Assembly: GCF_900499005.1 (NCBI RefSeq)
Contig: NZ_LS991316.1
Location: 222,191 to 269,674, forward strand
DNA: 47,484 nucleotides
Reading direction: 5' to 3'
Source of the DNA: Actinomyces culturomici
GTDB taxonomy: Bacteria; Actinomycetota; Actinomycetes; Actinomycetales; Actinomycetaceae
Below, one piece after another: positions 1,471 to 47,356 of the stretch. The notes beneath the pieces were generated by a model. That model did not search any database and was not told the DNA's origin. It saw only the letters and a list, made by a program, of their open reading frames with translations. Numbering within the stretch: position 1 is the first letter of the stretch; every line of letters starts with the position of its first letter. Both the position numbers and the translations under genes were made by a program.

Positions 1471-1558
1471 AAAGAGATCCCCTCGGCGGAGCAAGGTGAT
1501 GCTCTCGGCGCCCAAAGGTGATGCTCTCGGCGGAGCAAGGTGATGCTCTCGGCGGGCG
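1471..1558 (+). repeat. 22-bp tandem repeat array, locus A (four units)
   Basis: Units start at 1471, 1493, 1515 and 1537. The last three share the 18-base core AAGGTGATGCTCTCGGCG, and the first is a diverged unit with AGAGATCCCCTCG in place of the core. GCTC and GAGC within a unit and its neighbour can form a small hairpin. The array lies between the end of the IS110 element and the start of nnrD at 1578. Related copies are at 15652, 16047, 16161, 27142, 27427 and 47323. Confidence 0.9.
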
Positions 1559-1565
1559 GGGGTGA

Positions 1566-1571
1566 GAGGAT
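1566..1571 (+). promoter_or_regulatory. weak -10-like box for leaderless nnrD
   Basis: GAGGAT ends 6 nt before the ATG at 1578, the spacing seen at other leaderless starts in this window, but the first base is G instead of T. No clear Shine-Dalgarno is present. Confidence 0.3.
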
Positions 1572-1577
1572 CGGGGC

Positions 1578-3260
1578 ATGATCCCCGCCTACCCGCGCGC
1601 GCTCGTCCGCACCGCCGAATCCGCCCTCGTCGCCGAGGCGGCGAGTGCCGGCGACCCCGACCACTTCATGCGCTCGGCCGCCCGCGCCGTCGCCGACGCG
1701 GTCCTCGACGCGCTCGGAGACGACCCCCGCTCTCACGGCTCCCCGGCCGTCCTCGCGCTCGCCGGAGGCGGGGACAACGGCGGGGACGCGCTCTATGCCG
1801 CCTCCTTCCTCGCCGAATCGGGGATCCCCTGCATCGCGCTCGGCCTCCACAAGCGCATCCACGAGCGGGCGAGTGCGGCCGCGCGCGAGGCCGGCGTCGA
1901 GATCCTGCGCGCGCCCGTTCCGGGCGCGCGGACCGATTCGGACGACACCGCCGAGCAGGACGACACCGCCGAGCAGGACGGCGCCGTCGCGTCGCGTGCC
2001 TCGTCGGGGTCCGGGTCCGCCCTCGTCCCCGCGCTCGCCGACGACCCGCGGATCGCGGCGGCCCTGCGGGCCGGAGTGTGGATCGACGGGATCCTCGGCA
2101 CCGGGCTCGAGGGCGCGCCGCGCGAGCCCGCGCGCTCCTGGATCCGAGAACTCGAGGCGCTCCGCATCGCCAAGGGCGCCCGCGTCGTCGCCGTCGATGT
2201 CCCCTCCGGCGCCCTGTCCGACGAGGGCGCCGTCACCGAACCCGTCCTCGCCGCCGACCGCACGGTGACGATGGGCGGTCTCAAGTCCGCGCTCGTCCTG
2301 CCGCCCGCCCTCCACAGGGCGGGCGCGGTGACCGTCCACGACCTCGGGCTCGACCTTCCGGACTCGACGGTCCGGGTCGTCGAGGACGCCGATGTCGCCG
2401 AGGTCCTCGGCGTGCCGGACCCCTCGGACCACAAGTACACGCGCGGCGTCGCCGGCCTCGTCGCGGGCTCCGACTCCTACCCGGGCGCGGGCGTCCTCGC
2501 GTGCCTCGGTGCGCAGGCGGCGGGCCCCGGCATGATCCGCCTCGACGCGCCCGGACGCGTCGAGGACCTCGCGCTCGCCCGCATCCCCGGGATCGTCACC
2601 GAGGGCGGGCGCATCCAGGCGGGGCTCGTCGGCCCTGGCATGGACGAGACCCGCGAGCAATCGGTCCGCGACCTCGCCCGATTCTGCCTGAGCTCGGGCC
2701 TTCCCCTCGTCGTCGACGCGGGCGCCCTCGCCCTCGTCCCCGAGTTCGCGCGCACCGGGCTCGCGGACACCTGCGTCCTCACGCCGCACGCGGGGGAGGC
2801 CGCGGCGCTCCTCTCCGCCCTCGGGGAGTCGCGGCCGCGCTGGTGGATCGAGGAGAACCCCGCCGAGGCCACGCGGATCATCGCGTCGGCGACCGGCGCG
2901 CGCGTCCTTCTCAAGGGCGCGGCCTGCGTCCTCGCCTCCCCGGACGGCTCGCTCGTCGCGATCCCCGCGGGGCTCGGCTGGACGGGGGTCGCCGGCGCCG
3001 GAGACGTCCTCGCGGGTCTCCTCACCGGTCTCGCCGCCACTTGGCGCGCCCGCGTCGAAAGCGATCGCCCGCACGCCGACTTCGCGACCGTCCTCGCCGT
3101 CGGCGCTCTTCTTCACGCGAAGGCCGGTGCGTTCGCGGCCCGGCGCCACGGGCCCCTCGGCGCGCCCATCGGCGCGCACGAGATCGCCGGCGCCGTCCCC
3201 GCCGTCATCGGCCGCTTTCTGGCCGGGGCCGACGAGGCCGTGGAGCCGGTGGGATACTGA
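1578..3260 (+). CDS. nnrD: bifunctional NAD(P)H-hydrate epimerase / ADP-dependent NAD(P)H-hydrate dehydratase
   Basis: 560 residues. The N-terminal YjeF_N epimerase half carries GGGDNGGDALYAASFL at residues 63-78, the family's glycine-rich nucleotide loop. The C-terminal half is a ribokinase-fold dehydratase with GVAGLVAGS, LVGPGMDE, VVDAGALAL, VLTPHAGEAAALL and the catalytic VAGAGDVLAGLLTGL. The fused enzyme repairs hydrated NADH and NADPH in the cytosol. A low-complexity linker at about residues 117-150 holds an exact 18-bp tandem duplication (1941-1976) encoding DDTAEQ twice. It begins the same-strand block nnrD-alr-tsaE-tsaB-rimI; pairing with alr and tsa genes is common in actinobacteria. 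The start is supported by a -10-like box 6 nt upstream. Confidence 0.9.
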   Translation: MIPAYPRALVRTAESALVAEAASAGDPDHFMRSAARAVADAVLDALGDDPRSHGSPAVLALAGGGDNGGDALYAASFLAESGIPCIALGLHKRIHERASAAAREAGVEILRAPVPGARTDSDDTAEQDDTAEQDGAVASRASSGSGSALVPALADDPRIAAALRAGVWIDGILGTGLEGAPREPARSWIRELEALRIAKGARVVAVDVPSGALSDEGAVTEPVLAADRTVTMGGLKSALVLPPALHRAGAVTVHDLGLDLPDSTVRVVEDADVAEVLGVPDPSDHKYTRGVAGLVAGSDSYPGAGVLACLGAQAAGPGMIRLDAPGRVEDLALARIPGIVTEGGRIQAGLVGPGMDETREQSVRDLARFCLSSGLPLVVDAGALALVPEFARTGLADTCVLTPHAGEAAALLSALGESRPRWWIEENPAEATRIIASATGARVLLKGAACVLASPDGSLVAIPAGLGWTGVAGAGDVLAGLLTGLAATWRARVESDRPHADFATVLAVGALLHAKAGAFAARRHGPLGAPIGAHEIAGAVPAVIGRFLAGADEAVEPVGY

Positions 3261-3268
3261 GTCGCGTG

Positions 3269-4594
3269 ATGCCCTCCGTCCACACCCCCTCGGCCTATCC
3301 GGGACGCGCGATCGTCGACCTCGGCGCGATCGCCGACAACCTCGCGGTCCTGCGCGCCGCAGCTCCGCGCTCCCTGCAGATGGCGGTCGTCAAGGCGGAC
3401 GCCTACGGCCACGGCATCCTCCCCGTCGCCCTCACCGCGCTCGAGGCCGGATCCGAATGGCTCGGCGTCGCGCAGCTCGCCGAGGCCCTCGAACTGCGCG
3501 CCGGACTCGACGCCGCCGGTATCACTCGCGAGGCCGCCCCGATCCTCGCGTGGATCGCCCCGAGCGGTGCCGACTGGGGCGAGGCCCTGCGCGCCGGCAT
3601 CGACCTGTCGGTCTCCTGGACCTGGGTGCTCGCCGAGATCTGCGCCGCCGCGCGCGAGACGGGGATCCGCGCCCGTATCCACGTGAAGATCGACACCGGA
3701 ATGTCGCGCGCTGGATCGACCCCGGCCGACCTGCCCGCCCTCGCCGCCGCCGTCCGCACGGCCTCCGACGCGGGCCTCGTCGAGGTCGTCGGCGTCTGGA
3801 GCCACCTCTCGCGCGGCGACGACCCGAGCCCCGAGGGCAACGCCTCGACCGCCTCCCACGTCGAGATCTTCACCCGCGGTCTCGAGGTCCTCGCGGCCGC
3901 CGGCGTCACCCCTCGGATCCGTCACCTGTCGGCGACCTCCGGGATCCTCTGGCACCCCGAGGCCCACTTCGACATGGTCCGCGCCGGCATCGGCATGTAC
4001 GGCCTCAGCCCCGACCCGTCGGTCGCGACCGCCGCCGAGCTCGGCCTTCGCCCGGCGATGACCCTGCAGGCGCCCCTCACCTCGGTGAAGGTCGTCGAGG
4101 CCGACGTCCCCGCCTCCTACGGCGGCACCTGGCGGACGCCCTCGCGCCGCTGGCTCGGGCTCGTTCCTCTCGGCTACGCCGACGGGATCCTCCGCGCCGG
4201 ATCGAACGGCGCCCCCGTCCTCGTCGATTCCCCCGAGGGGCCGATCCGCACGAGCGTCGTCGGGCGGATCTGCATGGACCAGTTCATCATCGACCTCGGG
4301 CCCGCCGACGCCGAGCCCGGCACACCGACGGCCCGGACGCCCGAGCCGCCCGCCCGCGTCGGCGACCTCGCGGTCCTCTTCGGCGATCCCGCGGCGGGCG
4401 CGCCGCTCGCCGACGAGTGGGCGGCGAAGGCGGGGACGATCAACTACGAGGTCGTCTCGCGACTGGGGGAGCGGATCCCCCGTACGCACCTGCCCGCGGC
4501 GCGGACGCGGCCCGACACCGGGGACGATTCCGCCGGCGCCCCTCTCGACGACGCAGCCGCGAACGACGACCCCTCGAAGGAGACCCTGCGATGA
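3269..4594 (+). CDS. alr: alanine racemase
   Basis: 441 residues. This PLP enzyme interconverts L- and D-alanine for peptidoglycan. The PLP lysine sits in AVVKADAYGHG (about residue 39). The catalytic tyrosine of the second base is in ASYGGTW, followed by VPLGYADGILR and GRICMDQFIIDLG of the C-terminal barrel domain. The tail after INYEVVSRLGERIPR is a hydrophilic extension of about 35 residues. A GTG at 3266 is an alternative start: GATACT at 3253-3258 would lie exactly 7 nt before it, as at other leaderless genes here. The stop overlaps the tsaE ATG (ATGA at 4591), so the two are translationally coupled. Confidence 0.92.
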   Translation: MPSVHTPSAYPGRAIVDLGAIADNLAVLRAAAPRSLQMAVVKADAYGHGILPVALTALEAGSEWLGVAQLAEALELRAGLDAAGITREAAPILAWIAPSGADWGEALRAGIDLSVSWTWVLAEICAAARETGIRARIHVKIDTGMSRAGSTPADLPALAAAVRTASDAGLVEVVGVWSHLSRGDDPSPEGNASTASHVEIFTRGLEVLAAAGVTPRIRHLSATSGILWHPEAHFDMVRAGIGMYGLSPDPSVATAAELGLRPAMTLQAPLTSVKVVEADVPASYGGTWRTPSRRWLGLVPLGYADGILRAGSNGAPVLVDSPEGPIRTSVVGRICMDQFIIDLGPADAEPGTPTARTPEPPARVGDLAVLFGDPAAGAPLADEWAAKAGTINYEVVSRLGERIPRTHLPAARTRPDTGDDSAGAPLDDAAANDDPSKETLR

Positions 4595-5172
4595 CCGCAC
4601 TGTCCATGCCGACCTCCTCGGCCGACGAGACCCGCGCCCTCGGGCGCGCGCTCGGCGAGGTCCTGAAGGCCGGCGACCTCGTCATGCTGCGTGGCGGCCT
4701 CGGCGCCGGCAAGACGACACTCACTCAGGGCATCGGCGAGGGGATGGGCGTGCGCGGCCGCGTCGCCTCTCCGACCTTCATCGTCGCCCGCGTCCACCCG
4801 AGCACCCACGGCGGACCGGACCTCATCCACGCCGACGCCTACCGGATCCGCGACCTCGAGGACCTCGAGACCCTCGACCTCGACTCCTCGCTCGCCGGCT
4901 CCGTCACCGTCGTCGAATGGGGCGAGGGCAAGACCGAGGCGATGTCCGACGAGCGTCTCGAGATCGACGTCGTGCGCGCCACCGGCGGCGACATCGCCCA
5001 CGAGGACGGGGCCGTCGACCTCGAAACCATGGACGACGGAGCGCGCGTCCTCGAACTCCACCCCCACGGCTCGCGCTGGGACGGCGTCCTCGAGCCGGTC
5101 CTCGCACGTGCCGCCGAACTCGCCCGGCAGTACGACTCCGCCGCGCAGGGCGCCGACGCCGACCCCGAGTAG
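4591..5172 (+). CDS. tsaE: tRNA threonylcarbamoyladenosine biosynthesis ATPase TsaE
   Basis: 193 residues. A P-loop ATPase of the TsaBDE complex, which makes t6A37 on ANN-decoding tRNAs. Walker A is seen as RGGLGAGKTTLTQGI (about residues 34-48). It is followed by VASPTFIVARVH, then HADAYRI and VTVVEWGEG, which are the usual TsaE sequence blocks. The family is often near 150 residues; here a C-terminal tail of about 45 residues follows. The ATG overlaps the alr stop, and the stop overlaps the -10 box of tsaB. Confidence 0.92.
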   Translation: MTALSMPTSSADETRALGRALGEVLKAGDLVMLRGGLGAGKTTLTQGIGEGMGVRGRVASPTFIVARVHPSTHGGPDLIHADAYRIRDLEDLETLDLDSSLAGSVTVVEWGEGKTEAMSDERLEIDVVRATGGDIAHEDGAVDLETMDDGARVLELHPHGSRWDGVLEPVLARAAELARQYDSAAQGADADPE

Positions 5173-5175
5173 GAT
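5170..5175 (+). promoter_or_regulatory. -10 box of a leaderless tsaB transcript
   Basis: TAGGAT ends 7 nt before the GTG start at 5183 and overlaps the tsaE stop codon. There is no Shine-Dalgarno between them, so an internal leaderless promoter is likely. Confidence 0.55.
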
Positions 5176-5182
5176 CCGCACC

Positions 5183-5878
5183 GTGACTGATCTGACCCTC
5201 GACACCTCCGCCGCCACCGTCGTCGCCGTCGTGCGCGACGGCGAGGTCCTCGGACGCGCCCGCAACGACTCCTCGCGCCACCACGCCGAGTCGATCACCG
5301 TCTTCGTCCGCGAGGCCCTCGAGGCCGCCGGCCTGCCCGCGCAGGCGGACGTCGCCGGACTCGACCGCGTCCTCGTCGGCACCGGCCCCGCCCCCTTCAC
5401 GGGCCTGCGCGCCGGACTCGTCTCCGCGCGCGTCCTCGCGCGCGCCTGCTCCGTCCCCGTCTACGGCGCCTCGAGCCTCGACCTCGTCGCCCGCGCCGCC
5501 CTCGACCTCCTCGCCCCCGACGCGCACGTCGTCGCGATCTCCGACGCGCGCCGCAAGGAGCTCTACTGGGGCCACTTCGTCGCCGAGGGCCCCGACGACG
5601 TGCGCCTCGTCGACCGCCTCGAGGTCGGAACCGCGCAGACCCTCGTCAACTCGATGCGCGACATCGACGCGCTCCTCGTGTCCGCCGGACCCGCGCCCGC
5701 GCACTCCGAGCAGGTCCTCGCGCAGGTCCCGCGCGGCCCCGAGGTCGAACTCGACCCCGCGATCCTCACGCGCATCGTCGACGCCCGCCTCGCCCGCGGC
5801 GAGGAGTCCGTCCTCGGCACCGAGCCCCTCTACCTGCGCCGCCCGGAGATTCAAGGGCAGCCCATGGAGCGCATGTGA
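5183..5878 (+). CDS. tsaB: tRNA threonylcarbamoyladenosine biosynthesis protein TsaB
   Basis: 231 residues from GTG. An ASKHA-fold, catalytically inactive partner of TsaD in t6A synthesis. LTLDTSAATVVAVV opens the ATPase fold. SSRHHAESI and VGTGPAPFTGLRAGLVSARVLA form the usual TsaB signature (family consensus GPGSFTGLR, here GPAPFTGLR). SDARRKELYWGHF follows. The start was chosen because TAGGAT lies 7 nt upstream. The 3' end overlaps rimI by the GTGA at 5875. Confidence 0.92.
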   Translation: MTDLTLDTSAATVVAVVRDGEVLGRARNDSSRHHAESITVFVREALEAAGLPAQADVAGLDRVLVGTGPAPFTGLRAGLVSARVLARACSVPVYGASSLDLVARAALDLLAPDAHVVAISDARRKELYWGHFVAEGPDDVRLVDRLEVGTAQTLVNSMRDIDALLVSAGPAPAHSEQVLAQVPRGPEVELDPAILTRIVDARLARGEESVLGTEPLYLRRPEIQGQPMERM

Positions 5879-6426
5879 CGCTCTCGCCCGCCGGGATCCG
5901 TCTCATCCCCGCCGGACCCGGCGACGCGGCGACGCTCCTCGCCCTCGAGGAGACGCTTTTCCCCGAGGATCCGTGGACCGCCGCGATGATCCGCGAGGAA
6001 CTCGCCTCCGCCTACTCCGTCTACCTCCTCGCGCTCGAAGGCGACGCCGCCGCGCCGCCCGGATCCGGGATCGACGAGGCCGGTGCGGTGTGCGGATACG
6101 GGGGAGTGAGGATCGTCGGCGAGGGCGCCGACATCATGACGATCGGCGTCGTGCCCGAATCGCGCGGGCGGGGCCTCGGGGCCGCGATCCTCGAGCGCCT
6201 CCTCGACCTCGCCGCCGCGCGCGGGGCGTCCGCCTGCTTCCTCGAGGTGCGCGAATCGAACGGGCCCGCCCGACGCCTCTACGAGCGCGCCGGATTCGTC
6301 GAGGTCGGGCGGATCCGCCGGTACTTCCGCCGCCCGACCGAGGACGCGATCGCGATGCGCGCCGGCCTCGTCGATCGGTGCGGAACGGCGCCGTCGGACG
6401 GTTCCGCGAAATCCGCAAACATGTGA
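5875..6426 (+). CDS. rimI: ribosomal-protein-S18-alanine N-acetyltransferase RimI
   Basis: 183 residues from GTG. GNAT-fold acetyltransferase with EETLFPEDPWTAAMIREEL at the N-terminus. The acetyl-CoA loop is IGVVPESRGRGLGAAILERL, followed by ACFLEVRESNGPARRLYERAGF and RRYFRRPTEDAIAMR, the full RimI signature. It follows tsaB with a 4-base overlap. In many actinobacteria tsaD comes next, but here sdhCAB and two small genes intervene. The family acetylates the N-terminal alanine of S18 in Gammaproteobacteria; the actinobacterial substrate range may be broader. Confidence 0.9.
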   Translation: MTLSPAGIRLIPAGPGDAATLLALEETLFPEDPWTAAMIREELASAYSVYLLALEGDAAAPPGSGIDEAGAVCGYGGVRIVGEGADIMTIGVVPESRGRGLGAAILERLLDLAAARGASACFLEVRESNGPARRLYERAGFVEVGRIRRYFRRPTEDAIAMRAGLVDRCGTAPSDGSAKSANM

Positions 6427-6603
6427 TGGTGAAAACATCTGCGCGCGCACCTCGGCGGGGCTCTCGAAGCGGATCGGGGAGGACATTCGTGGCGCGCGTC
6501 GCATTCGCGGGAAATCGCGCGATCACGCGGAAAACGACACCGCGTCCCGAAACGGGCCAGGGTCCTCGGTCCTGAGTCCCAGAGGGCCGGAAGTCCTCGC
6601 GCA

Positions 6604-6609
6604 TAAGCT
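6604..6609 (+). promoter_or_regulatory. -10 box of leaderless sdhC mRNA
   Basis: TAAGCT ends 7 nt before the sdhC ATG at 6617, and no Shine-Dalgarno lies in between. The sdh operon mRNA is therefore predicted to start at or next to the A of the ATG. Confidence 0.55.
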
Positions 6610-6616
6610 GTGCAAC

Positions 6617-7318: not shown

Positions 7319-7333
7319 GGAAGGTCGAAAACA

Positions 7334-10053: not shown

Positions 10054-10072
10054 TCCGCCGAATCGGCCATCC

Positions 10073-15620: not shown

Positions 15621-15694
15621 CGCTCGCCCTCGTCGCCTTCCGCGCCGCCGACCTTCGCCGAAAGCATCACGTTCGCGCATCGAGGGGATCTCTG
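15621..15694 (+). repeat. 74-bp direct repeat, copy 1
   Basis: Matches 16016-16089 at 72 of 74 positions, 395 bases apart. Its distal part is an inverted copy of the 22-bp repeat. Confidence 0.9.
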
Positions 15695-15695
15695 G
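15652..15695 (-). repeat. 22-bp repeat, locus B (inverted, two units)
   Basis: Reverse strand carries AGAGATCCCCTCG followed by AACGTGATGCTTTCGGCG in the same 22-base register as the other loci. Confidence 0.85.
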
Positions 15696-15738
15696 CTCCT
15701 CACGGGTTGGGGTGTAGTCGGTTGCCGATGCCTCGCAT

Positions 15739-16010
15739 GACTTGGATCGCCGTGTCGGCGTGCGTGGTGGATGGGGTGTGGCGTCGAGTGTGCGATCCGG
15801 GTTGTCCGGCGCGCGGAATCGGCGGCCTGCGTGACTTGGATCGCCGTGTCGGCGTGCGTGGTGGGTGGAGAGGGTCGTCGAGTGTGCGATCCGGGTTGTC
15901 CGGCGCGCGGAATCGGCGGCCTGCGTGACTTGGATCGCCGTCTCGGCGTGCGTGGCGGGTGGGGTGTGGCGTCGAGTGTGCGATCCAGGTAGCGTCGCGC
16001 CCAGAATCGG
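15739..16010 (+). repeat. 94-bp minisatellite, about three copies
   Basis: Copies begin at GACTTGGATCGCC at 15739, 15833 and 15927, an exact 94-base period. The first two are nearly identical and the third diverges after about 60 bases. It is bracketed by the 74-bp direct repeats. Confidence 0.9.
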
Positions 16011-16015
16011 GGCGC

Positions 16016-16089
16016 CGCTCGCCCTCGTCGCCTTCCGTGCCGCCGACCTTCGCCGAAAGCACCACGTTCGCGCATCGAGGGGATCTCTG
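16016..16089 (+). repeat. 74-bp direct repeat, copy 2
   Basis: Second copy of 15621-15694, with two substitutions, on the other side of the 94-bp array. Confidence 0.9.
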
Positions 16090-16090
16090 A
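16047..16090 (-). repeat. 22-bp repeat, locus C (inverted, two units)
   Basis: Same as locus B, with one T-to-C change inside the core. Confidence 0.85.
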
Positions 16091-16160: not shown

Positions 16161-16226
16161 GGCGAGATCCCCTCGCTGAGGCAAGGTGATGCTTTCGGCG
16201 CGCGAAGGTAATGCTCTCGGTGGGGT
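16161..16226 (+). repeat. 22-bp repeat, locus D (three units)
   Basis: Units at 16161 (AGATCCCCTCG type), 16183 and 16205 (AAGGTGATGCT and AAGGTAATGCT types). The array ends five bases before the stop codon of the convergent ccdA-like gene. Confidence 0.85.
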
Positions 16227-16230: not shown

Positions 16231-17109
16231 TCAGCTCGCAGGGGCGCCGCCGTCGGGGAGGGCGCCGCCGTCGGGGCGGACGCCCTCGTCGATGCGGCGG
16301 GGCCAGGCGTACCAGGCGGCGCCGGCGATCGCGAGGAGGGCGACGAGGAGCGCCCAAGCGGGGACGAGGGCCGCCCAGCCCATGAGCGACTCCTCCCAGG
16401 AGGCGAGGAGCGCCGAGGGGACGAGGCCGCCGAGCGGATTGTTCGCCGAGACGAGGAGGAGAGCGCCGAGCCCGACGAGGAGCGCGCCCGACACGATGTT
16501 CGTCCACGTCGTCGCCCGTCCGAGCACCGTCGCCGGACGAGGGCGCAGCCACGCGCGCTCTGCGAGGCGGGCACCGCGCCACAGTGCCGCGAGGAGCCCG
16601 AGCGGCAGGGCCATGCCCGTCGCGTAGAGGACCATGAGAAGCGCGCCCGACGCCGGATCGCCGCCGACGCCCGCGGCGACGAGGACCGCTCCGAGGATCG
16701 GGCCCGCGCACCCGATCCCGGCGAACCCGTAGGCGATGCCGAGGAGGAGGATCGACGCCGGATGGGTGCGATCCCGTTCGGCGCGGGCGCCGACGCCCGC
16801 GCGCGTCCGCCGGAATGAGGGAAGCTCGAGGGCGAGGATCTCGACGACGCCGAGGGCGATGACGAGGAGCGCGCAGATCCTCGTGAGGAGTCCGAGGTGG
16901 TCGCGGAGGACCGCTCCCGCGGCGCCGGCGAGGACGCCGAGCGGGACGAGCGAGACGAGAAGGCCCGCCCAGAAGAGGAGCGTGCGTCCGATGAGCGCCG
17001 AACGCGACTGGAAGGCGTAGGCGAAGAACGCCGGGAGGATCATCACCGAGCACGGGGCGAGGAGTGTGAGCGCCCCGCCGAGGAGCGCGGCGAGCGGGGC
17101 GAGCGTCAC
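16231..17109 (-). CDS. CcdA/DsbD-type thiol-disulfide membrane transporter
   Basis: 292 residues from GTG overlapping the upstream dsbA-like stop (GTGA). Six or more membrane helices. The two reactive cysteines of the family are present: one in LTLLAPCSVMILPAF of the first helix, one in GFAGIGCAGPILGAVL of the fourth. CcdA proteins pass reducing equivalents from cytosolic thioredoxin across the membrane for cytochrome c maturation or thiol repair. It has an extra C-terminal helix and a tail with a short repeat (DGGALPDGGAP). Pairing with a DsbA-like protein points to extracytoplasmic thiol chemistry. Confidence 0.85.
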   Translation of the reverse strand: MTLAPLAALLGGALTLLAPCSVMILPAFFAYAFQSRSALIGRTLLFWAGLLVSLVPLGVLAGAAGAVLRDHLGLLTRICALLVIALGVVEILALELPSFRRTRAGVGARAERDRTHPASILLLGIAYGFAGIGCAGPILGAVLVAAGVGGDPASGALLMVLYATGMALPLGLLAALWRGARLAERAWLRPRPATVLGRATTWTNIVSGALLVGLGALLLVSANNPLGGLVPSALLASWEESLMGWAALVPAWALLVALLAIAGAAWYAWPRRIDEGVRPDGGALPDGGAPAS

Positions 17110-25979: not shown

Positions 25980-27141
25980 AAAGCGCACCCCGGAGCGCAC
26001 GACCCGCCGCAACGGGACGCGCTCGAAGACCCTGGCCACTCCAGCCGGCGAGGTGGACCTGGCGATCCCCAAGCTGAGGGAGGGGTCGTTCTTCCCGTCC
26101 CTGCTGTCCCCGCGCAGGAGGGTCGACAAGGCCCTGTACGCCGTTGAATTGCCACTGCCTGGATCGACGGCGTGTCCACCCGCAAGGTCGACCAGCTGGT
26201 GCGCGCCCTGGGCAACGACACGGGCATCTCCCGCTCCACGGTCTGGCGGATCTGCACCGAGATCGACGAGACCGTCGCGCAGTTCCTGACCCGACCCCTG
26301 GACCACACCTGGTTCCCCTACCTGTTCCTGGACGCCACCTACCTCGACGTCAGGGTGCGGGGCCGCGTCGTCTCCCAGGCCTTGGTGGTCGCCACCGGCG
26401 TCTCCGGTCAGGGGCGCCGCGAGATCCTCGGGATCAGCCTGGGGGACGCCGAAACCACCGACTTCTGGACAAGCTTCCTGCGCTCCCTGCGCGAGCGGGG
26501 CCTGAAGGTCGCCTCGCCGGCGGACCCCGCTGGGGTCACGCTGGTCACCAGCGACTCCCACGCCGGCCTGAAGGCCGCGGTCAAGGCGATCCTGCCGGGA
26601 GTGGCCGGGCAGCGGTGCCGTGTGCACTTCTCGCGCAACGTCACCCAGCGCCTGGGGTCGGCGCGCTCCAAGCCCGTGAACGCGCTGATCTCCACAATCT
26701 TCGCCCAGACCACGCCCGAGGCCGTCACCGCCCAGTACCAGGCGGTCACAGACTCCCTAACCGGCTCCTTCCCCGAGATCGCCCACATGCTCGCCGACGC
26801 CGAGGCTGACCTGACGGCCTTCGCGGCCCTGCCCAGAGAGCACTGGCAGAAGGTCTGGTCCAACAACCCCATCGAGCGGCTCAACCGCGAGATCAAGCGC
26901 CGCGCCGACGTCGTCCAGATCTTCCCCGACCGCCAGTGCGTCACCCGCCTCATCGGAGCCGTCCTGCTCGAGCAACACGAAGAATGGCAGTACGGCGAAC
27001 GCCGCTACTTCTCCGACATCTCCATGCGCAAACTCATCCACACCCTCACCGACCACCACGACACCACCAAACCCCAGCTCCACCTCACCGCCTGACCCAC
27101 ACCCAGCAGACGAAGTGACACCACTCAAAGGGACTTGACCC
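25980..27141 (+). mobile_element. IS256-family element, 5'-truncated remnant
   Basis: The right end is preserved: AAAGGGACTTGACC after the transposase resembles an IS256-family terminal repeat. The matching left repeat is absent and the transposase lacks its N-terminal part. The remnant stops exactly where a 22-bp repeat array begins (27142). Confidence 0.7.
25984..27095 (+). pseudogene. IS256-family transposase, truncated and frameshifted
   Basis: Similarity begins near RTPERTTRRNGTRSKTLATP (reading from 25984) and continues through GEVDLAIPKLREGSFFPSLL. The frame breaks at about 26140-26160, between DKALYAV and AWIDGVSTRKVDQ. It then runs in another frame to 27095 with the DDE-type Transposase_mut core: LFLDATYLDVRV (first Asp), VTLVTSDSHAGLKAAVKAILPG (second Asp), QRCRVHFSRN, and SNNPIERLNREIKRRADVVQIFP with the catalytic Glu. 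About 60-80 N-terminal residues are missing. One indel plus the truncation make it inactive. Confidence 0.85.
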
Positions 27142-27179
27142 ATCCCCTCGACGCGCGAACGTGATGCTCTCGGCAGAAT
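27142..27179 (+). repeat. 22-bp repeat, locus E (two units)
   Basis: ATCCCCTCG-type unit directly after the IS256 end, then AACGTGATGCTCTCGGC at 27158. The 72-bp array starts immediately after. Confidence 0.85.
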
Positions 27180-27428
27180 CGGGCACACGCCACCGACAAC
27201 GCGCCCGAAACCGACCCCAACCTCAGCCGTATCGGGCACATACACCGGAATCGGGCACACGCCACCGACAACGCGCCCGAAACCGACCCCAACCTCAGCC
27301 GTATCGGGCACATACACCGGAATCAGGCACACGCCGCCGACAACGCGCCCGAAACCGACCCCAACCTCAGCCGTATCGGGCACATACACCGGAATCAGGC
27401 ACACGCCGCCGACAGCGCGCCCGAAACC
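27177..27428 (+). repeat. 72-bp minisatellite, 3.5 copies
   Basis: Copies begin at 27177, 27249, 27321 and 27393 (AATCGGGCACACGCC or AATCAGGCACACGCC), an exact 72-base period. The last copy is cut at about 27428. Copies are almost identical, with small changes such as GCCACC to GCCGCC shared by later copies. ATCGGGCACA occurs twice per unit. The period keeps frames open on both strands, but no start, Shine-Dalgarno or known product supports coding. Confidence 0.92.
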
Positions 27429-27492
27429 GCCGATCCCCTCGACGGAGCAACGTGATGCTTTCGGCGGAGAAAGGTGATGCTCTCGGTGGTTA
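27427..27492 (+). repeat. 22-bp repeat, locus F (three units)
   Basis: Units at 27427 (GATCCCCTCG type), 27449 (AACGTGATGCTTTCGGCG) and 27471 (AAGGTGATGCTCTCGGTG). The array runs into the stop codon of the minus-strand gene fragment at 27490. Confidence 0.88.
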
Positions 27493-27618
27493 GAGGAGGG
27501 GGGCGAGGTCGTCGCGGTGGACGACGGGGCGCGGGTGCTCCCACCCGGCGAGGCGCAGGTCGGCGGCCGAGGACCCGGCCATCTGCGCGATCGCGTCGGA
27601 GTCGTAGGAGACGATGCG
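27490..27618 (-). pseudogene. 3' fragment of an unidentified gene
   Basis: The minus strand reads IVSYDSDAIAQMAGSS, then DLRLAGWEHPRPVVHRDD and APLL before the stop at 27490. This looks like the conserved end of a real protein. Upstream of about 27618 the frame becomes low-complexity and lies antisense to an LPXTG-type tail, so the 5' part is missing. The parent family was not recognised. Confidence 0.5.
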
Positions 27619-27765
27619 CCCTCCGCGTCCACGACCGGAACCCCGTCGGGAGCGACGAAGGCGAGCGGTCTCGCGCGAACCGGTTTCGATGGCGGATCCG
27701 TCCTCCTGTTCGCGGGCCTCCTCCTCGGCGCGAGCGCCGTCGCGCTCGCGGCGAAGCAGCGCTGA
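27613..27765 (+). pseudogene. orphan LPXTG-type cell-wall sorting signal
   Basis: The plus strand encodes SASTTGTPSGATKASG, then LARTG (27670-27684), a hydrophobic segment GSVLLFAGLLLGASAVALAA and the tail KQR before the stop. This is a complete sortase sorting signal with a spacer, but no exported protein precedes it. It is the 3' end of a lost surface-protein gene. Confidence 0.6.
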
Positions 27766-40223: not shown

Positions 40224-40305
40224 CGCGCGGATCCGGGGCGCATCGGCACGTGCTCACGCCGCTGCGCCCCGGTGACGCGACAATGGATACGGCCCGCGCA
40301 GGGGA

Positions 40306-40407
40306 GCTCGCACTCCGGCGCGGGCCTTTCCGCATCCCCGGGCATGTCGTCGCCGTTGTGCTTGTTCGTGCTCGCGCTCCGGCGCGGGGCCCTTCCGCAT
40401 CCCCGGG
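40306..40407 (+). repeat. 37-38-bp direct repeat pair
   Basis: 40306-40342 and 40370-40407 share GCTCGC-CTCCGGCGCGGG and TTCCGCATCCCCGGG with few differences. Confidence 0.8.
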
Positions 40408-40410
40408 AGT

Positions 40411-40566
40411 GATTGGCGGCTTTCCGCACGTACGGCGGCTTTCCGCACGTTTGGCGGCTTTCCGGATGTCTGGCGGCTTTCCGGATGTTTGGCGGCGAGA
40501 AACTGCCAAGATTCCGCCGCCAAACGCCACAAGACCCGCCAAACGCTGTGAAACCCGCCAAACGCG
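40411..40566. repeat. two inverted arrays with exact 19-bp period
   Basis: GGCGGCTTTCC begins at 40415, 40434, 40453 and 40472, with a final GGCGGC at 40491. On the other side of a GGCGGCG/CGCCGCC core hairpin, CGCCAAACGC begins at 40518, 40537 and 40556. The right arm is the inverse complement type of the left (TTTGGCGG against CCGCCAAA). The whole could extrude as one long imperfect hairpin. Confidence 0.85.
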
Positions 40567-40610
40567 TGTTGGAGGGGGAAGACGAGCGCGGGGAGGCGCG
40601 ACGTCCTCAA

Positions 40611-40773
40611 CGGACCCGACTCCGCTGGCGAACCTGACCCGCCCCCGCGCGCGAAGCGGACCCGACTCCGCTGGCGAAGCGGACTCGACCCCAAGAGCGA
40701 ACGGGACCCGCCCCCTCGGGGTTGCGGACGCGGCGGGCGACGGCCTCGACCCCGCGAGCGAACGGGACCCGCC
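40611..40773 (+). repeat. degenerate direct repeats of about 46 bp
   Basis: A 22-base sequence starting CGGACCCGACTCC is exactly repeated at 40611 and 40657. GAGCGAACGGGACCCGCC is exactly repeated at 40695 and 40756. The four stretches share a GCGAA-GGACCCG pattern. Confidence 0.75.
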
Positions 40774-40910
40774 GATGCGACGAAACGGGGGCGGCGGCCC
40801 GGGGGAATCCCCGTGCCGCCGCCCCTTCGTTCGTCCTGCCACCCGCGCAGCGGGCCCGCCCTCGTCGATCAGCCGCGCGGGGCCGACCGACGGCGCGAGG
40901 CCACACCGGA

Positions 40911-42581
40911 TCACAGGCCCGGGCGCTTGCCGATCATCAGCGTGACCTCCTGCGTGCCCGCGAAGAAGTCATTGCCCTTGTCGTCGACGACGATGAACGC
41001 CGGGAAGTCCTCGATCTCGATCTTCCACACGGCCTCCATGCCGAGCTCCGGGTACTCGAGGAGCTCGACCTTCTTGATGCAGTTCGCCGCGAGCTCGGCC
41101 GCCGGGCCGCCGATCGAGCCGAGGTAGAAGCCGCCGTGCTTCTCGCACGCGTCCGTCACCTGCTTCGAGCGATTGCCCTTCGCCACCATGATCATCGAGC
41201 CGCCGAGGGCCTGGAACTGGTCGACGTAGGAGTCCATACGCCCCGCGGTCGTCGGGCCGAAGGAACCGGAGGGCATGCCCTCCGGGGTCTTCGCCGGGCC
41301 CGCGTAGTAGACAGGGTGGTCGAGCATGTACTGCGGCATCGGCTCGCCGTTCTCGATGCGCTCGCGGATCTTCGCGTGGGCGATGTCGCGGGCGACGATC
41401 ATCGTGCCGTTGAGCGAGAGACGGGTCTTCACCGGGTACTTCGTGAGCTCGGCGAGGATCTCCTTCATCGGGCGGTCGAGGTCGATGCGGACGGCGCCGG
41501 TGTCCTCGCCGAGCTCGGCCGGGTCGGTCGCCGGGAGGAAGCGGCCAGGATCGGTGTCGAGCTTCTCGAGGAAGACGCCCTCGGGCGTGATCTTCGCCTT
41601 CACCTGGCGGTCGGCGGAGCAGGACACGGCGATCGCGACGGGCAGCGAGGCGCCGTGTCGGGGGAGTCGAACGACGCGGACGTCGTGGCAGAAGTACTTG
41701 CCGCCGAACTGGGCGCCGATCCCCATCTGACGGGTGAGCTCGAGGACCTGCTCCTCCATCTCGACGTCGCGGAAGCCGTGCGCGAGCTCGGAGCCCTGCG
41801 TCGGCATCGCGTCGAGGTAGTGGGCGGACGCGTACTTCGCGGTCTTGAGCGCGAACTCGGCGGAGGTGCCGCCGATGACGATCGCGAGGTGGTAGGGCGG
41901 GCAGGCGGCCGTGCCGAGCGAGCGGATCTTCTCCTCGAGGAACTGCATCATGTGCTCGGGATCGAGGATCGCCTTCGTCATCTGGTAGAGGTACGACTTG
42001 TTCGCCGAGCCGCCGCCCTTCGCCATGAAGAGGAAGTGGTAGGAGGTCTCCTCGCCCGGGCGGGTGTCGGCGTAGAGCTCGATCTGCGCGGGGAGGTTGC
42101 AGCCGGTGTTCTTCTCCTCGTACATGGAGATCGGGGCGTTCTGCGAGTAGCGGAGATTGAGCTCCGTGTAAGCGTCGAAGACGCCCTTCGCGAGGGGGCG
42201 CTCGTCCGGGCCCTCGGTGAGGACGCGCTGGCCGCGCTCGCCCTTGATGATCGCGGTGCCCGTGTCCTGGCACATGGGGAGGACGCCGGCCGAGGCGACG
42301 TTCGCGTTCTTCAGGAGGTCGAGGGCGACGAACTTGTCGTTCGCGGAGGCCTCGGGGTCGGCGAGGATCTTCGCGACCTGCTCGAGGTGGGCGGTCCTCA
42401 GGTAGAAGGAGATGTCGTGGTAGGCGGTCTTCGCGAGGAGCTCGAGAGCCTCGGGGGAAACCTTGAGGAAGGACTTCCCGTCGGGCCCCTCGACGGTCGA
42501 CACCCCCTCGGTGGTGAGCAGTCGGTACTCCGTGGTGTCCTCGCCCAGCGGCAGCATGTCCTCGTAGAAGAACTCGGTCAC
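40911..42581 (-). CDS. fum: class I (iron-sulfur) fumarate hydratase
   Basis: 556 residues from GTG with GGAGCC upstream. The three cysteines of the 4Fe-4S cluster are Cys104 ([10 protein letters not shown]), Cys227 ([16 protein letters not shown]) and Cys321 (AVSCSADRQ), at nearly the E. coli FumA positions. Other blocks include [17 protein letters not shown] and the C-terminal beta part with [18 protein letters not shown]. It hydrates fumarate to malate in the TCA cycle and is oxygen-labile, suiting an anaerobic or facultative host. It complements sdhCAB in the same window. Confidence 0.95.
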
Positions 42582-42723
42582 GTTTCGGCTCCTTCGCGCC
42601 TCGTGTCGTTCGTCGTTCGGACCCACGGTAGGGCGCGGGGTCGCCGCTTCGCGGGACGGGGGTCCCTCCTGTTCACTCGGGGCGCACCCCTCGGCTCCCG
42701 GGCGGCCGGTTTTCGGCTCCACC

Positions 42724-43230
42724 ATGCGGATCGTCGACGAGCGGAGGCCTGTGGTCCGGGCATCGGGGCGGGTGCTCCCAGAGCCCCGTGGAATCGAGGG
42801 AACGGTCCGCGACGGCGGATTAGCGATCGCCGGTGTTGCGCATTTCGGCGAGGAGTCGCGCGAAGCGCCCGAAGCGCCCTCCGCGGACGACGCGATCGTC
42901 GTCACCGGGCTCCTCGTCCTCGCCGCGTCCACCGCGCTGAAGTACGCGATCCCGGGCAAGCGGCTCGTGAAGTCGGGGACTCCGAACTCGACGCTCCTCC
43001 TCGCGCTCGCGGTCGGCGTCGTCGGCTGGTTCGTCGTCCCCGTCCTCGGCCTCCCGCTCGGAGCCCTGGGGGCCGTCTACCTCCTCGAGCGCCACCGCCT
43101 CGGCGCTCACGCCGACGCATGGTCCGCGATCCTCGACGTGCTGAAGTCCCTCGGGCTCTCGATCCTCATCGAGGTCGTCGCGGCGCTCGTCGTCGCGAGT
43201 CTCTGGATCCTCGGGCTCCTCCTCGTCTGA
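42724..43230 (+). CDS. DUF456-family membrane protein, N-terminal half missing
   Basis: 168 residues. Residues from about 58 match the C-terminal half of DUF456 proteins: [59 protein letters not shown] and [16 protein letters not shown]. The first two DUF456 helices, with a VLPG-type motif, are replaced by about 57 hydrophilic residues without similarity. It may be a 5'-truncated gene translated from a later start. No Shine-Dalgarno supports the ATG at 42724. Divergent from fum. Confidence 0.6.
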
Positions 43231-43316
43231 GCCGCGGATCGCGTCGCGTCCCTCCGCGAGCGCTGAACAGGCCCGGGACCAGGGGATTCCCCGATGCGCG
43301 CGGGCGCTCGCTCGCA

Positions 43317-43322
43317 TAGCCT
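43317..43322 (+). promoter_or_regulatory. -10 box of the leaderless DUF418 gene
   Basis: TAGCCT ends 6 nt before the ATG at 43329. Confidence 0.45.
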
Positions 43323-43328
43323 CGGGGC

Positions 43329-44681
43329 ATGTCCGTCTCCACGTCCTTCACCGGCGCGCGCGGCATCCGCTACCCCGCGCCGGACGTCGCCCGGGGCCTC
43401 ATGCTCCTCCTCATCGCGGTCGCGAACGTCCCCTTCTGGCTCGCCTTCTTCCCCGACGCCCCCGCCGGCGGCTCCCTCGACCGGGGGTGGGTGCTCGTCC
43501 GCTCGCTCCTCGTCGACCACCGCGCCTACCCGCTCTTCTCGATCCTCTTCGGATTCGGTCTCATGACGATGCTCGACCGCGGGGAGGAGCGCCACATCGA
43601 CGCGAGGACCGCCGAGCTCGACGCGCGGCTCCCCGGCATGCCGGAGGACGTGCGGACCGGCTGGATCGAGGGGTTCGCCCGCGAGGCCCGCGACCGTTCG
43701 AGGCGCCTCGTCCGGCGCAGGGGCTGGTGGATGCTCCTCTTCGGCCTCGTCCACGGGCTCGTCTTCGCCGGCGACATCATCGGCGCCTACGGGCTCGTCG
43801 CGGTGCTCTTCGCCGGTCTGCTCGCCCGGCGCGCGTGGAAGACGCTCACCGCGCTCGGCGTCGCCCAGGTCCTCGTCATGACTCTCGCCCTCCTCGCGAG
43901 CCCGGGGGCGTCGGCCGCGGGCGGCTCGGCGGGCTCCATGGGGGACGGTTCGATCGCCGCCCTCCTCGACTGGTACTACCCGATCCTCTCGGGGCTCCTG
44001 TGGGCGACCTCGACGCTGCTCATCGCGGTGCTCGCGGCCGTCGTCCCTTGCGTCGTCATCGGCGCGGCGCTCGCCCGCACAGACCTCCTCGCCCGCCCGG
44101 ACCTTCACCGCCCGCTCCTCGTCGCGATCGGGCTCGGCGGACTCGCGCTCGCGGCCGCCGGGGGAGCCCCGCAGGCCCTCGAGGCCGCGGGATTCGCCGC
44201 GTCCGCGCCGTCGTGGGCGCACGCCCTCCACGAGCTCTCCGGGATCCCCGGGGCGATCGGCTGGCTCGCGCTCCTCGCCCTCCTCGCGGGTCCGCCGGCC
44301 GAGCGCCTCGGCGCGGTCCGCGGGCTCCTGTCGGCGATCGGGAAGCGCTCGATGACCGCCTACATCGGGCAGACGATCCTCTTCGTCGCGGTGTTCGGGA
44401 TCGCCGGGCTCCTCGGGGTTCGCGGCGTCGGCCAGTTCGCTGGATTCCTCATCGCCGTCGGCGTCTGGGCGGCGCTCGCCGCCATGTGCGGCCTGCTCGA
44501 GCGGGCCGGATACGCGCGCGGCCCCTTCGAACGGCTCCTGCGCAGGGCGGTCGCCCTTTCCGAGATCGACCGGCCGATCCCGCCGATCCCCGCGCCGCCC
44601 GCGTATCCGCCGGACACGGTTCCGGCGGGTGCGACTGAGCGGGCCGCGGCGCCGGAGGACCCGATGGGCCCGAGGGCCTGA
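43329..44681 (+). CDS. DUF418-family polytopic membrane protein
   Basis: 450 residues with about eight to ten membrane helices. Diagnostic DUF418 blocks: PDVARGLMLLLIAVANVPFW, YPLFSILFGFGLMTML, RRRGWWMLLFGLVHGLVFAGD-IIGAYGLVA, and GKRSMTAYIGQTILFVAVFG near the C-terminus. Family function is unknown; it is distantly related to acyltransferase-type membrane proteins. The hydrophilic Pro-rich tail of about 45 residues is cytosolic. It is a single gene, with direct repeats between its end and the convergent SdpI-like gene. Confidence 0.85.
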   Translation: MSVSTSFTGARGIRYPAPDVARGLMLLLIAVANVPFWLAFFPDAPAGGSLDRGWVLVRSLLVDHRAYPLFSILFGFGLMTMLDRGEERHIDARTAELDARLPGMPEDVRTGWIEGFAREARDRSRRLVRRRGWWMLLFGLVHGLVFAGDIIGAYGLVAVLFAGLLARRAWKTLTALGVAQVLVMTLALLASPGASAAGGSAGSMGDGSIAALLDWYYPILSGLLWATSTLLIAVLAAVVPCVVIGAALARTDLLARPDLHRPLLVAIGLGGLALAAAGGAPQALEAAGFAASAPSWAHALHELSGIPGAIGWLALLALLAGPPAERLGAVRGLLSAIGKRSMTAYIGQTILFVAVFGIAGLLGVRGVGQFAGFLIAVGVWAALAAMCGLLERAGYARGPFERLLRRAVALSEIDRPIPPIPAPPAYPPDTVPAGATERAAAPEDPMGPRA

Positions 44682-44696
44682 GCGTCCGTCCGATCG

Positions 44697-44783
44697 GCGC
44701 CCGGCCCCGGCCTCGTCGATCGGGAACGAAGCGGCCGCGCGCCTCAGCGCATTCGGACGAGGGCGCCCAGCCCCGGCCTCGTC
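44697..44783 (+). repeat. 21-bp direct repeat at the end of convergent genes
   Basis: A 21-base sequence ending CCCCGGCCTCGTC occurs at 44697-44717 and 44763-44783 with one mismatch. The same CGGCCCCGGCCTCGTC sequence follows tsaD at 11865. Confidence 0.7.
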
Positions 44784-45147
44784 ACTTCATGCGATTGACG
44801 GCCGACACCGCGGCCGCCGAGGCGACGAACCACAGCGCGATCGCGACGACGACCCCCGAGAGGCAGAGGATCCGGGTGAAGGCCACGCCGTCGGCTCCCA
44901 TGAGGAGCCCCGCGATCGCGCAGCCCACCGCATGGAACGCCGCGACCGCGGCCGCCATCGCGAGGATCGGCCAGGCGGCCTCGTGGCCGGTCCGCCAGGC
45001 CTCCTCGGAGGCCTCGAGCTCCCGGTTGTGCAGGCCGATCGCCGCGCCCTTCTTCAACGTGCCCGCGCGGCCGCGAGCCGCGACGAGCGCGTAGAGCACA
45101 GCGAGGAGCCCGAAGCCGAGCAGGCCGAAGATCCCGAGCGGGTTCAC
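44782..45147 (-). CDS. SdpI-like membrane protein
   Basis: 121 residues from GTG overlapping the nadE stop (GTGA). Three membrane helices (about 5-22, 57-77, 92-112). GAAIGLHNRELEASEEAWRTGHEAAWP resembles the SdpI-family signature (G-RT-T--SDEAW-AGH). SdpI proteins give immunity to the SdpC toxin in Bacillus, but most homologues have no known role. It follows nadE and may be co-transcribed with it. Confidence 0.7.
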   Translation of the reverse strand: MNPLGIFGLLGFGLLAVLYALVAARGRAGTLKKGAAIGLHNRELEASEEAWRTGHEAAWPILAMAAAVAAFHAVGCAIAGLLMGADGVAFTRILCLSGVVVAIALWFVASAAAVSAVNRMK

Positions 45148-47267
45148 TTCGCCTCCGCCTTCGCCTCAGCGCCGTCGGAGGGCGCGTCCACGCCCGAGCC
45201 CGGGACGCCGGCGACCGCTCGCTCGAGCTCGGCGATCCAGCGCGCGCCCGTGACGTCCGACGGCATCCTCCAATCGCCGCGCGGCGAGATCGCGCCGCCC
45301 GCCATCACCTTCGGACCGTTCGGAAGGGCCGAGCGCTTGAACTGCTGGGAGAAGTAGCGCTTGAGGAACAGCGTCTCCCACTTCACGATCTCGTCGAGCG
45401 AGTAGGCGACGCGGTCCTCGGCCGGGAAGCCCGAGGGCCACTGGCCCGTATCCGCGTCCGACCAGGCCTTCTCGGCGAGGAACGCGATCTTCGAGGGGCG
45501 CGAACCGCGACGCAGCACGTGGTAGAGCGTGAAGTCCTGCAGGTTGTACGGGCCGATCGTGTCCTGCGTCGACTGGATCTTCTCGCCGGGCTTCGACGGA
45601 ACGAGCTCGGGGGAGATCTCCGTGTCGAGAATCGAGAGGAGAACCCGGCCCGCCTCGTCGGAGAACTGGCCCGACGTGACGACCCAGCGGATGAGGTGCT
45701 GGATCATCGTCTTCGGGACGCCCGTGTTCACCGCGTAGTGGCTCATCTGATCGCCGACGCCGTAGGTGCACCAGCCGAGCGCGAGCTCCGACAGATCGCC
45801 CGTCCCCAGGACGATGCCGCCGCGGTGGTTCGCGATGCGGAAGAGGTAATCGGTGCGCAGTCCCGCTTGGACGTTCTCGAAGGTGACGTCGTAGTCGTCG
45901 GCGCCCTCCGAGCAGGGGTGGTGGAGGTCGGAGAGGAGCTGGCGGGCGGCCGGCGTGATGTCGATCGTCTCGCAGGGGATCTCGAGGGACTCGCAGAGGG
46001 CGAGCGCGTTCGACTTCGTCCCCTCCGAGGTCGCGAACCCCGGCATCGTGTAGGCGAGGATGTCCGTGCGCGGGCGCCCGAGGAGGTCCATCGCGCGGGC
46101 CGCGACGATGAGCGCGTGCGTCGAGTCGAGGCCGCCGGACACGCCGATGACGACCTTCGGGTTCCCGATGGCGCGCAGGCGCTGGACGAGGCCCGAGACC
46201 TGGATGTTGTACGCCTCGTAGCAGTCCTGGGCGAGGCGCGCCGGGTCGTCGGGGACGAAGGGGAAGCGGTCGACCGGGCGCTCGAGCCCGAGGTCCGTCC
46301 GCGGCGGATCGAGGCGGACGATTTCGCGGTCGAAGGCGTCGGCGGGGGAGTTCTCTCCCGCGTAGTCGGCGTTGTCCTTGAAGGAGTTCTGGCGCGTGCG
46401 CTCGGTGACGAGGCGGTCGAGGTCGACGTCGGCGATCGACAGGGTCCGCCCGCCGCGCGCGAAGCGCTCGCCCTCGGCGAGAAGGTCCCCGCACTCGTAG
46501 ATCATCGTCTGGCCGTCCCACGCGAGGTCGGTGCTCGACTCGCCCTCGCCCGCCGCGCAGTAGAGGTAGGCCGCGTTGAGTCGGGCGGAGGCCGAGCGGA
46601 CGAGGAGACGGCGGTCCTCCGCGCGCCCCACCGTGATCGGGGACGCCGAGAGATTGACGAGGACGGTCGCCCCGGCGAGCGCCGCGTAGGAGGACGGGGT
46701 GATCGGGACCCACATGTCCTCGCAGACCTCGGGCGCGAGGACGAAGCCGGGGAGGTCCTCCGCTTCGACGAGGATCGAGCCGAAGCGGACGAGGTCGTCG
46801 CCCGCGGCCGACCACTTCGACGCGTCGATGGCGTACGGCGTCTGAACGCCGGGCGTGACGAAATGGCGCTTCTCGTAGAACTCCCGGTAGTTCGGGAGAT
46901 GGAGCTTCGGCGTGACGCCGAGGATCCGGCCCCGGTGGATGGTCACCGCGCAGTTGTAGAGGGCCCCTTCGGCGCGGATCGGCGCGCCGACGACGATGAT
47001 CGGGAGGAGGTCGACCGAGGCCTCGGCGATCACGCGGATCGCCTCGTCGACCTCGTCGAGGAGGACGTCCTGGAGGAGGAGGTCGTCGATCGCGTAGCCC
47101 GACAGCGCGAGCTCGGGGAGGACGAGGGCGACGACGCCTCTGTCGGAGGCCTCCTTCGCGACGGAGACGACCTCCGCGGCGTTGCGCAGGGGTTCTGCGG
47201 GGTGGACGGGGACGGTGGCGGCCGCGACCCGGGCGAATCCCTGGTCGTAGAGCGAATGGAAGTTCAC
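45144..47267 (-). CDS. nadE: glutamine-dependent NAD(+) synthetase
   Basis: 707 residues from GTG preceded by GAGGAGGA. The N-terminal nitrilase-fold glutaminase has the triad Glu52 (VLPELALSGYA), Lys121 (VTPKLHLPNYREF) and Cys182 (APEVCEDMWVP). The C-terminal synthetase has the ATP loop IGVSGGLDSTHAL (about 374-386) and GDLSELALGWCTYGVGD. It makes NAD from deamido-NAD with glutamine-derived ammonia. Size and motifs match the two-domain mycobacterial enzyme. A longer frame to 47297 adds ten residues without support. Confidence 0.95.
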   Translation of the reverse strand: MNFHSLYDQGFARVAAATVPVHPAEPLRNAAEVVSVAKEASDRGVVALVLPELALSGYAIDDLLLQDVLLDEVDEAIRVIAEASVDLLPIIVVGAPIRAEGALYNCAVTIHRGRILGVTPKLHLPNYREFYEKRHFVTPGVQTPYAIDASKWSAAGDDLVRFGSILVEAEDLPGFVLAPEVCEDMWVPITPSSYAALAGATVLVNLSASPITVGRAEDRRLLVRSASARLNAAYLYCAAGEGESSTDLAWDGQTMIYECGDLLAEGERFARGGRTLSIADVDLDRLVTERTRQNSFKDNADYAGENSPADAFDREIVRLDPPRTDLGLERPVDRFPFVPDDPARLAQDCYEAYNIQVSGLVQRLRAIGNPKVVIGVSGGLDSTHALIVAARAMDLLGRPRTDILAYTMPGFATSEGTKSNALALCESLEIPCETIDITPAARQLLSDLHHPCSEGADDYDVTFENVQAGLRTDYLFRIANHRGGIVLGTGDLSELALGWCTYGVGDQMSHYAVNTGVPKTMIQHLIRWVVTSGQFSDEAGRVLLSILDTEISPELVPSKPGEKIQSTQDTIGPYNLQDFTLYHVLRRGSRPSKIAFLAEKAWSDADTGQWPSGFPAEDRVAYSLDEIVKWETLFLKRYFSQQFKRSALPNGPKVMAGGAISPRGDWRMPSDVTGARWIAELERAVAGVPGSGVDAPSDGAEAKAEAK

Positions 47268-47322
47268 GGAAGTCCTCCTCGTGGGGTTCCGGATCATTGT
47301 CTCCTAATCGGGCGCGTGCGCG

Positions 47323-47356
47323 CGCCGAGAGCATCACCTTCGTGCGACGAGAGCAT
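47323..47356 (-). repeat. 22-bp repeat, locus G (one and a half units), cut by IS30
   Basis: The minus strand has ATGCTCTCGTCG, then AAGGTGATGCTCTCGGCG in the 22-base register. The first unit lacks its AAGGTG half, where IS30 sequence begins instead. It lies between the IS30 end and the nadE start. Confidence 0.85.

Follow-up and report, generated by a model that had tools for sequence, protein, structure and literature searches.

Dispersed 22-bp tandem arrays in Actinomyces culturomici form a REP-like repeat family interrupted by insertion sequences

Introduction

What are the short repeats that recur, at an exact 22-bp period, between the genes of a 47,484-nt stretch of the Actinomyces culturomici genome (contig NZ_LS991316.1, positions 222,191 to 269,674; hereafter the window, meaning the whole stretch of DNA that was analysed)? 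A preliminary description of this DNA recognised seven such loci and likened them to a REP/BIME-type family in which short tandem arrays start with a fixed leader unit. Among the papers listed by our literature search, which covered open-licence PMC full texts, none appeared to describe such repeats in Actinomyces or Schaalia. The best matches of NadE were to Schaalia cardiffensis (79%) and Actinomyces mediterranea (78%), and we infer from them that the window belongs to the same genus as these relatives, close to Schaalia.

Here we describe the anatomy, distribution and insertion-sequence (IS) associations of the arrays. On balance we lean, if only slightly, towards regarding them as REP/MITE-like, non-coding, non-autonomous palindromic array elements that are used as landing pads by IS elements.

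Results

Seven array loci in the window

All seven loci were recovered in 22-bp register. A leader unit of type GATCCCCTCG, diverged from the repeated unit, heads arrays A to F, and none is in view at G, as had been described. The arrays and their neighbours, in window coordinates, are:

133 to 1431, plus strand: IS110-family transposase (PF01548, PF02371), whose downstream flank reaches the leader of array A
1471 to 1558, plus strand: array A, leader and 3 units at a 22-bp period, between the IS110 gene and a yjeF-type gene at 1578
15652 to 15695, minus strand: array B, leader and 1 unit
15694 to 15713, plus strand: ISL3-type inverted-repeat end, adjoining the leader of B and followed by 94-bp tandem repeats
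15735 to 16016, no strand: 94-bp tandem repeats between B and C
16047 to 16090, minus strand: array C, near-duplicate of B
16161 to 16226, plus strand: array D, leader and 2 units
26172 to 27095, plus strand: Mutator/IS256-type transposase (PF00872), just upstream of array E
27141 to 27179, plus strand: array E, leader and 1 unit
27176 to 27429, no strand: 72-bp tandem repeats between E and F
27427 to 27492, plus strand: array F, leader and 2 units, abutting a ProB C-terminal fragment
40414 to 40566, no strand: 19-bp TTTGGCGG arrays in inverted orientation (fold z -5.6), the window's second repeat family
47323 to 47356, minus strand: array G, cut by an IS30-type insertion at GGTGATG^CTCTCG
47357 to 47484, minus strand: end of the IS30-type element, with inverted repeat GGCGGTTTCAGGCGG...; the window ends inside the element

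Locus G has no leader because the IS30-type element sits inside its unit. B and C are an 83-bp near-duplicate, and the tail of D lies 8 bp from the stop of a DsbD-like gene (16231-17109, minus strand). The ProB fragment beside F (27493-27624, minus strand) matches at 93% over 44 aa; an array / repeat / array arrangement similar to that of E and F is also found after proB, at C17:658094-658313 (C17 being a contig of the same genome), and E and F are not independent of another locus. The stretch 27141-27624, comprising E, the 72-bp repeats, F and the ProB fragment, resembles a copy of this post-proB segment. In a convergent gap elsewhere in the window, a 23-bp tandem array (CGGACCCGACYCCGC..., 40611-40797) adjoins the 19-bp TTTGGCGG arrays; its exact motif was absent from 36 sampled stretches of the genome. 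The window matched no Rfam 15 family at the gathering score, and positions 1440-1577 had no match in plasmid or phage collections.

Repeat unit and genome-wide copy number

Alignment of 73 copies gave the unit consensus [GC]ATCCCCTCGAYG NNNN AASGTGATGCTYTCGGYG, in which the 4-bp spacer varies. Of 61 spacings between neighbouring plus-strand units, in DNA from this genome and the congener G150, 54 are 22 bp and five are 23 bp. By reading rather than by count, certain positions consistently distinguish the leader from the repeated unit, and longer arrays often end in the unit GTAATGCTCTCGGTG.

A genome search with the core GTGATGCTYTCGGYG bore out the expectation that the family extends beyond the window: 210 matches at no more than one mismatch were found in the 2.56-Mb genome (reversed control, 1). 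The exact core occurs 106 times here, 19 times in G150 and 0-2 times in each of the other 211 of 213 family genomes; a two-unit pattern occurs 189 times here (reversed control, 0), 39 times in G150 and never in the other 211. A strict leader-plus-core scan of a wider genome-contig collection, from which this genome may be absent, gave no match.

We catalogued 110 arrays, built as a diverged leader with 1-5 units at 22 bp, in 84 regions of the genome; these regions (0.98 Mb) were in many cases chosen for containing the core and allow no density estimate, and the 110 include one probable chance match inside a gene (C17:92448). A script flagged the leader in 82 of the 110, and some of the unflagged arrays (window A, for example) had their leader counted as a unit. 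A sample of 36 evenly spaced 20-kb stretches, together with the window (767 kb in all), held 45 arrays, and from the 38 outside the window we estimate a genome total of about 135.

Exact cores are unevenly spread along contig C17: among the first 100 matches listed, 45 fall within its first 660 kb and 7 within the 944 kb beyond. The dnaA gene is at C18:316906; GC skew of the sampled stretches tracks the coding strand, and the terminus was not placed by it.

The palindrome lies in paired arrays

The preliminary description held that part of the unit (TGCTC-TCGGCG-GAGCA) can fold. Such a hairpin requires GAGCA in the spacer, yet the spacer varies, and the single unit is no clear palindrome; 36 single arrays compared with shuffles had only a slight advantage in folding (mean z -0.5 for one strand, -0.9 for the other). 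The palindrome arises instead where two arrays are paired tail to tail. There are seven such pairs, separated by 5 bp in six cases and 4 bp in one, and no head-to-head pair occurs within 40 bp in DNA from this genome and G150. Being inverted repeats, all seven fold strongly as long hairpins (z -4.3 to -8.7). Leaders stand at both outer ends in two pairs, at one end in four and at neither in one. Paired arrays account for 14 of the 110 catalogued, the other 96 being single arms.

In the flanks of 80 arrays, the longest shared k-mers were as in shuffles, giving no sign of a target-site duplication, and no plus-then-minus pair of arrays within 5 kb encloses a gene in the 0.98 Mb of catalogued regions.

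Shared positions and other repeat families

Six of the 16 arrays of G150 (353480, 655720, 1108551, 1229814, 2120607 and 2402334) have both flanking genes, by orthology, in common with arrays here; the orientation is the same in four cases and opposite in two (655720, 2402334). At 353480 the TGA stop codon of the upstream gene is followed at once by the array in both genomes. Two further G150 arrays (517768 and 513692) each have one flanking gene in common with array C19:71825. The gap corresponding to G150 860889 has no array in our genome, and that corresponding to 2349094 holds an inverted pair of the 19-bp TTTGGCGG family instead, between alignable flanks. The shared fraction is no unbiased rate, since the regions compared are partial and largely picked for arrays; by these positions, arrays appear to have been present already in the ancestor shared with G150.

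Other tandem families occur in the genus. Among 35 genomes, a 23-bp family (GARGTCCGCTC) gave two-unit matches in G155 (144), G156 (350) and G172 (2) and none elsewhere, and a 19-bp family, TAACCTATCC, gave 26-113 in ten genomes and none elsewhere; reversed controls for both were 0. At this two-unit stringency each of the 35 genomes carries at most one of the 22-bp, 23-bp and 19-bp TAACCTATCC families. In the regions examined, inverted pairs of the TAACCTATCC family have a gap of 1 bp in three cases and 20 bp in two more, and three of its pairs fold at z -7.4 to -9.1; the single pair of the 23-bp family that was read (in G156) has a longer, degenerate middle between its arms. Homology of the 22-bp and 23-bp units was considered and is undemonstrable (p 0.09-0.31). 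Tandem arrays of 18-19 bp were also found near nadE in S. cardiffensis (L137) and S. odontolytica (L143).

The 19-bp TTTGGCGG family (L034, L059, L033, L230, L231, L236) is built of inverted arms, often with CAACACGCG at the outer end, around centres that vary from copy to copy. It gave 20 two-unit matches in the 767-kb sample of this genome and none in 60-kb samples of 20 congeners.

A scripted survey of 30 proB loci, with proB and proA named by NCBIfam, compared one intergenic slot across genomes. Units of 22 bp lie between proB and proA in our genome (3) and in G150 (2), units of 23 bp follow proB in G155 (2) and G156 (8), and neither kind follows proB in the other 26 loci. No proA lies within 1.5 kb after proB in G155, G156, G167 or G175, so that the slot of G155 and G156 is shared on the proB side only. 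In G145, the roughly 400-bp gap that precedes proA contains a stretch that looks, by eye, like degenerate repeats. The same genome has a tandem repeat of about 24 bp (GGTCTCTCCCGTTCAGCGAGSAGC, L109) at the end of a gene whose orthologue here has array C19:1076 in that place.

The arrays might be binding sites for a DNA-binding protein of the nucleoid-associated or insulator type, with a recognition sequence that shifts between clades and with the period and the 5-bp dyad gap reflecting protein spacing. The constancy of period and gap, the restriction of three families to at most one per genome among 35, and the positions in common with G150 would all suit such a role. We nevertheless think it unlikely, because the period itself differs between families (19, 22 and 23 bp), the number of units varies and an orthologous gap can do without an array, as at G150 860889.

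Position relative to genes

Nearly all sampled arrays (43 of 45) fall between called genes, the calls coming from a simple codon-usage script that misses some genes and places starts approximately; the other two are inside a called gene, and one of these, which has no leader, is probably a chance match. Thirty-seven arrays could be assigned to gaps. The counts for tandem, convergent and divergent gaps were 20, 15 and 2, where gap length predicts 21.6, 8.5 and 6.9 (p = 0.62, 0.017 and 0.035, uncorrected). Convergent gaps are thus over-represented and divergent gaps under-represented at these uncorrected values, and in tandem gaps the arrays show no clear orientation bias (11 versus 9).

This distribution, together with the very stable hairpins of paired arrays, is what bidirectional transcription terminators or hairpins at mRNA 3' ends might produce. 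Most arrays, however, are single arms with little tendency to fold, and the even orientation in tandem gaps also speaks against such a function, which we consider quite doubtful.

Insertion sequences in and beside the arrays

In the regions examined, GGTG-ATG-CTYTCG or its complement is the site of all 14 distinct ends of IS30-type elements. The complete copies, five in number and 1278 bp long, have ATG (or CAT) at both ends, and one intact copy (L221) has coding sequence for rve and HTH domains; the name IS30 reflects our reading of the ends and these domains rather than a comparison with an IS database. When the element at C17:537837-539114 and one ATG were removed by script, the site became a leader with 3 units in register, and its G150 orthologue is an uninterrupted leader with 3 units. 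A motif for ISL3-type ends gave 19 rows, of which three were set aside as loose, among them a possibly diverged end 185 bp from an array (L067). Of the 16 accepted, 11 abut a unit (at the 8-mer GGTAATGC or a variant), two a leader and three neither. Many array-abutting ISL3-type ends have an 8-bp GGTAATGC duplication, and the transposase beside one end has PF01610.

Most IS30-type ends come from regions picked for arrays, and it was at arrays that the IS-end motifs were first recognised. Counted over the evenly spaced stretches and the window, three of three IS30-type ends and three of six ISL3-motif rows fall no more than 45 bp from an array; zones of this width make up 0.78% of this DNA. The array unit itself appears to be what the IS30-type and ISL3-type elements recognise. 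Genes of IS110 and IS256 type adjoin loci A and E, an association that rests on one end each in the sample.

Three segments bounded by ISL3-type ends (C17:199358-199907, C19:83096-83629 and C19:119070-119627) are only about 530-560 bp long, shorter than a transposase gene needs, and are inserted at GGTAATGC-like sites in array units.

One of four IS-end motifs lies within 45 bp of 24 of the 110 arrays, and the other 86 arrays have none, which disposes of the concern that copies might exist only as parts of IS ends. The idea that the arrays are fragments of IS ends, that is, transposase binding sites, draws on this proximity and on a loose likeness of the unit to the IS30-type inverted repeat, and is highly improbable given that the likeness is not significant (p = 0.11) and that IS copies interrupt arrays with short duplications, one such array being intact in G150.

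Comparison with known repeats and targets

MITEs are non-autonomous, non-coding elements with mirror-image ends. The arrays are likewise non-autonomous and non-coding, and the two complete pairs, among seven in all, have mirror-image ends; they differ in that no target-site duplication was found and no parent transposon was seen, and in being mostly single-armed.

The arrays resemble REP, BIME and REPIN elements in being present in many copies between genes, in forming inverted pairs in some cases, in belonging to lineage-specific families and in serving as IS targets. The arrays differ in being direct tandem repeats with a fixed 22-bp period and a leader. They work like REP/BIME elements but depart from the class in two of its features: high-copy intergenic repetition and inverted pairing (a minority, 7 pairs among 110 arrays) are present, and a palindromic unit and a Y1 (RAYT) gene are not. 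The REP/BIME-type label therefore holds for dispersed, intergenic, short tandem arrays with a fixed leader, and fails for the classical system in which a RAYT transposase spreads the family: abundance, intergenic position, occasional inverted pairs and IS targeting would all fit, yet we give the latter almost no credence, as the unit is no clear palindrome and the PF01797 profile, which matched 5 of 14 control genomes, found nothing in this genome or eight relatives. CGTC-type REPs, also dispersed without a dedicated or linked transposase, are described as palindromes of 20-40 bp (PMC3733652), unlike the unit here.

The REP-targeting families named in PMC1525189 are IS3, IS110, IS4, IS256 and IS5, and the IS30 and ISL3 types that target the present arrays fall outside these five. 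A strongly preferred target sequence is described, in PMC9333248, for an IS30-family element that makes a 2-bp duplication; the IS30-type element here likewise has a strongly preferred target, and differs in that this target is a dispersed genomic repeat unit and its duplication 3 bp (ATG).

Discussion

Our reading of the arrays as palindromic array elements starts from what is directly observed: their anatomy and spacing, the fixed gap between tails, the positions shared with G150, and the insertion sites with their target duplications. The full form would be leader - [22-bp unit]n - 5 bp - [unit]n inverted - leader inverted, so that the stem of the palindromic element would consist of tandem repeats. 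Single arms presumably derive from pairs that have lost one arm, as long palindromes are unstable, and the opposite orientation at two of the gaps shared with G150 is what loss of different arms would give; it could instead mean independent insertions. Arm loss is not proven, given that 14 of 110 arrays are paired and two of seven pairs have both leaders. The number of units would change, probably through slippage or gene conversion, and IS elements would land in arrays because these are abundant and harmless to interrupt. Selfish or neutral persistence is presumed, as is some process of amplification; an autonomous partner was not seen in the regions of this genome that were examined.

More tentatively, and with rather less conviction than we would need to adopt it, we suggest that the genus hosts a general class of palindromes with stems made of short-period tandem arrays, that lineage-specific families swap in the same intergenic slots, that one shared process renews them and that IS transposases have evolved to target them. 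The families behind this suggestion are the 22-bp family (here and in G150), the 23-bp GARGTCCGCTC family (G155 and G156), the 19-bp TAACCTATCC family (ten genomes) and the 19-bp TTTGGCGG family (here), which have their build in common and between which sequence homology is undetectable.

If true, these readings would extend REP-like repeats to a group in which the RAYT search found none, and would provide an example of palindromes built from tandem units as well as a natural IS30-family element with a very narrow target choice. The turnover of repeat families within one genus, in similar intergenic slots, would become testable.
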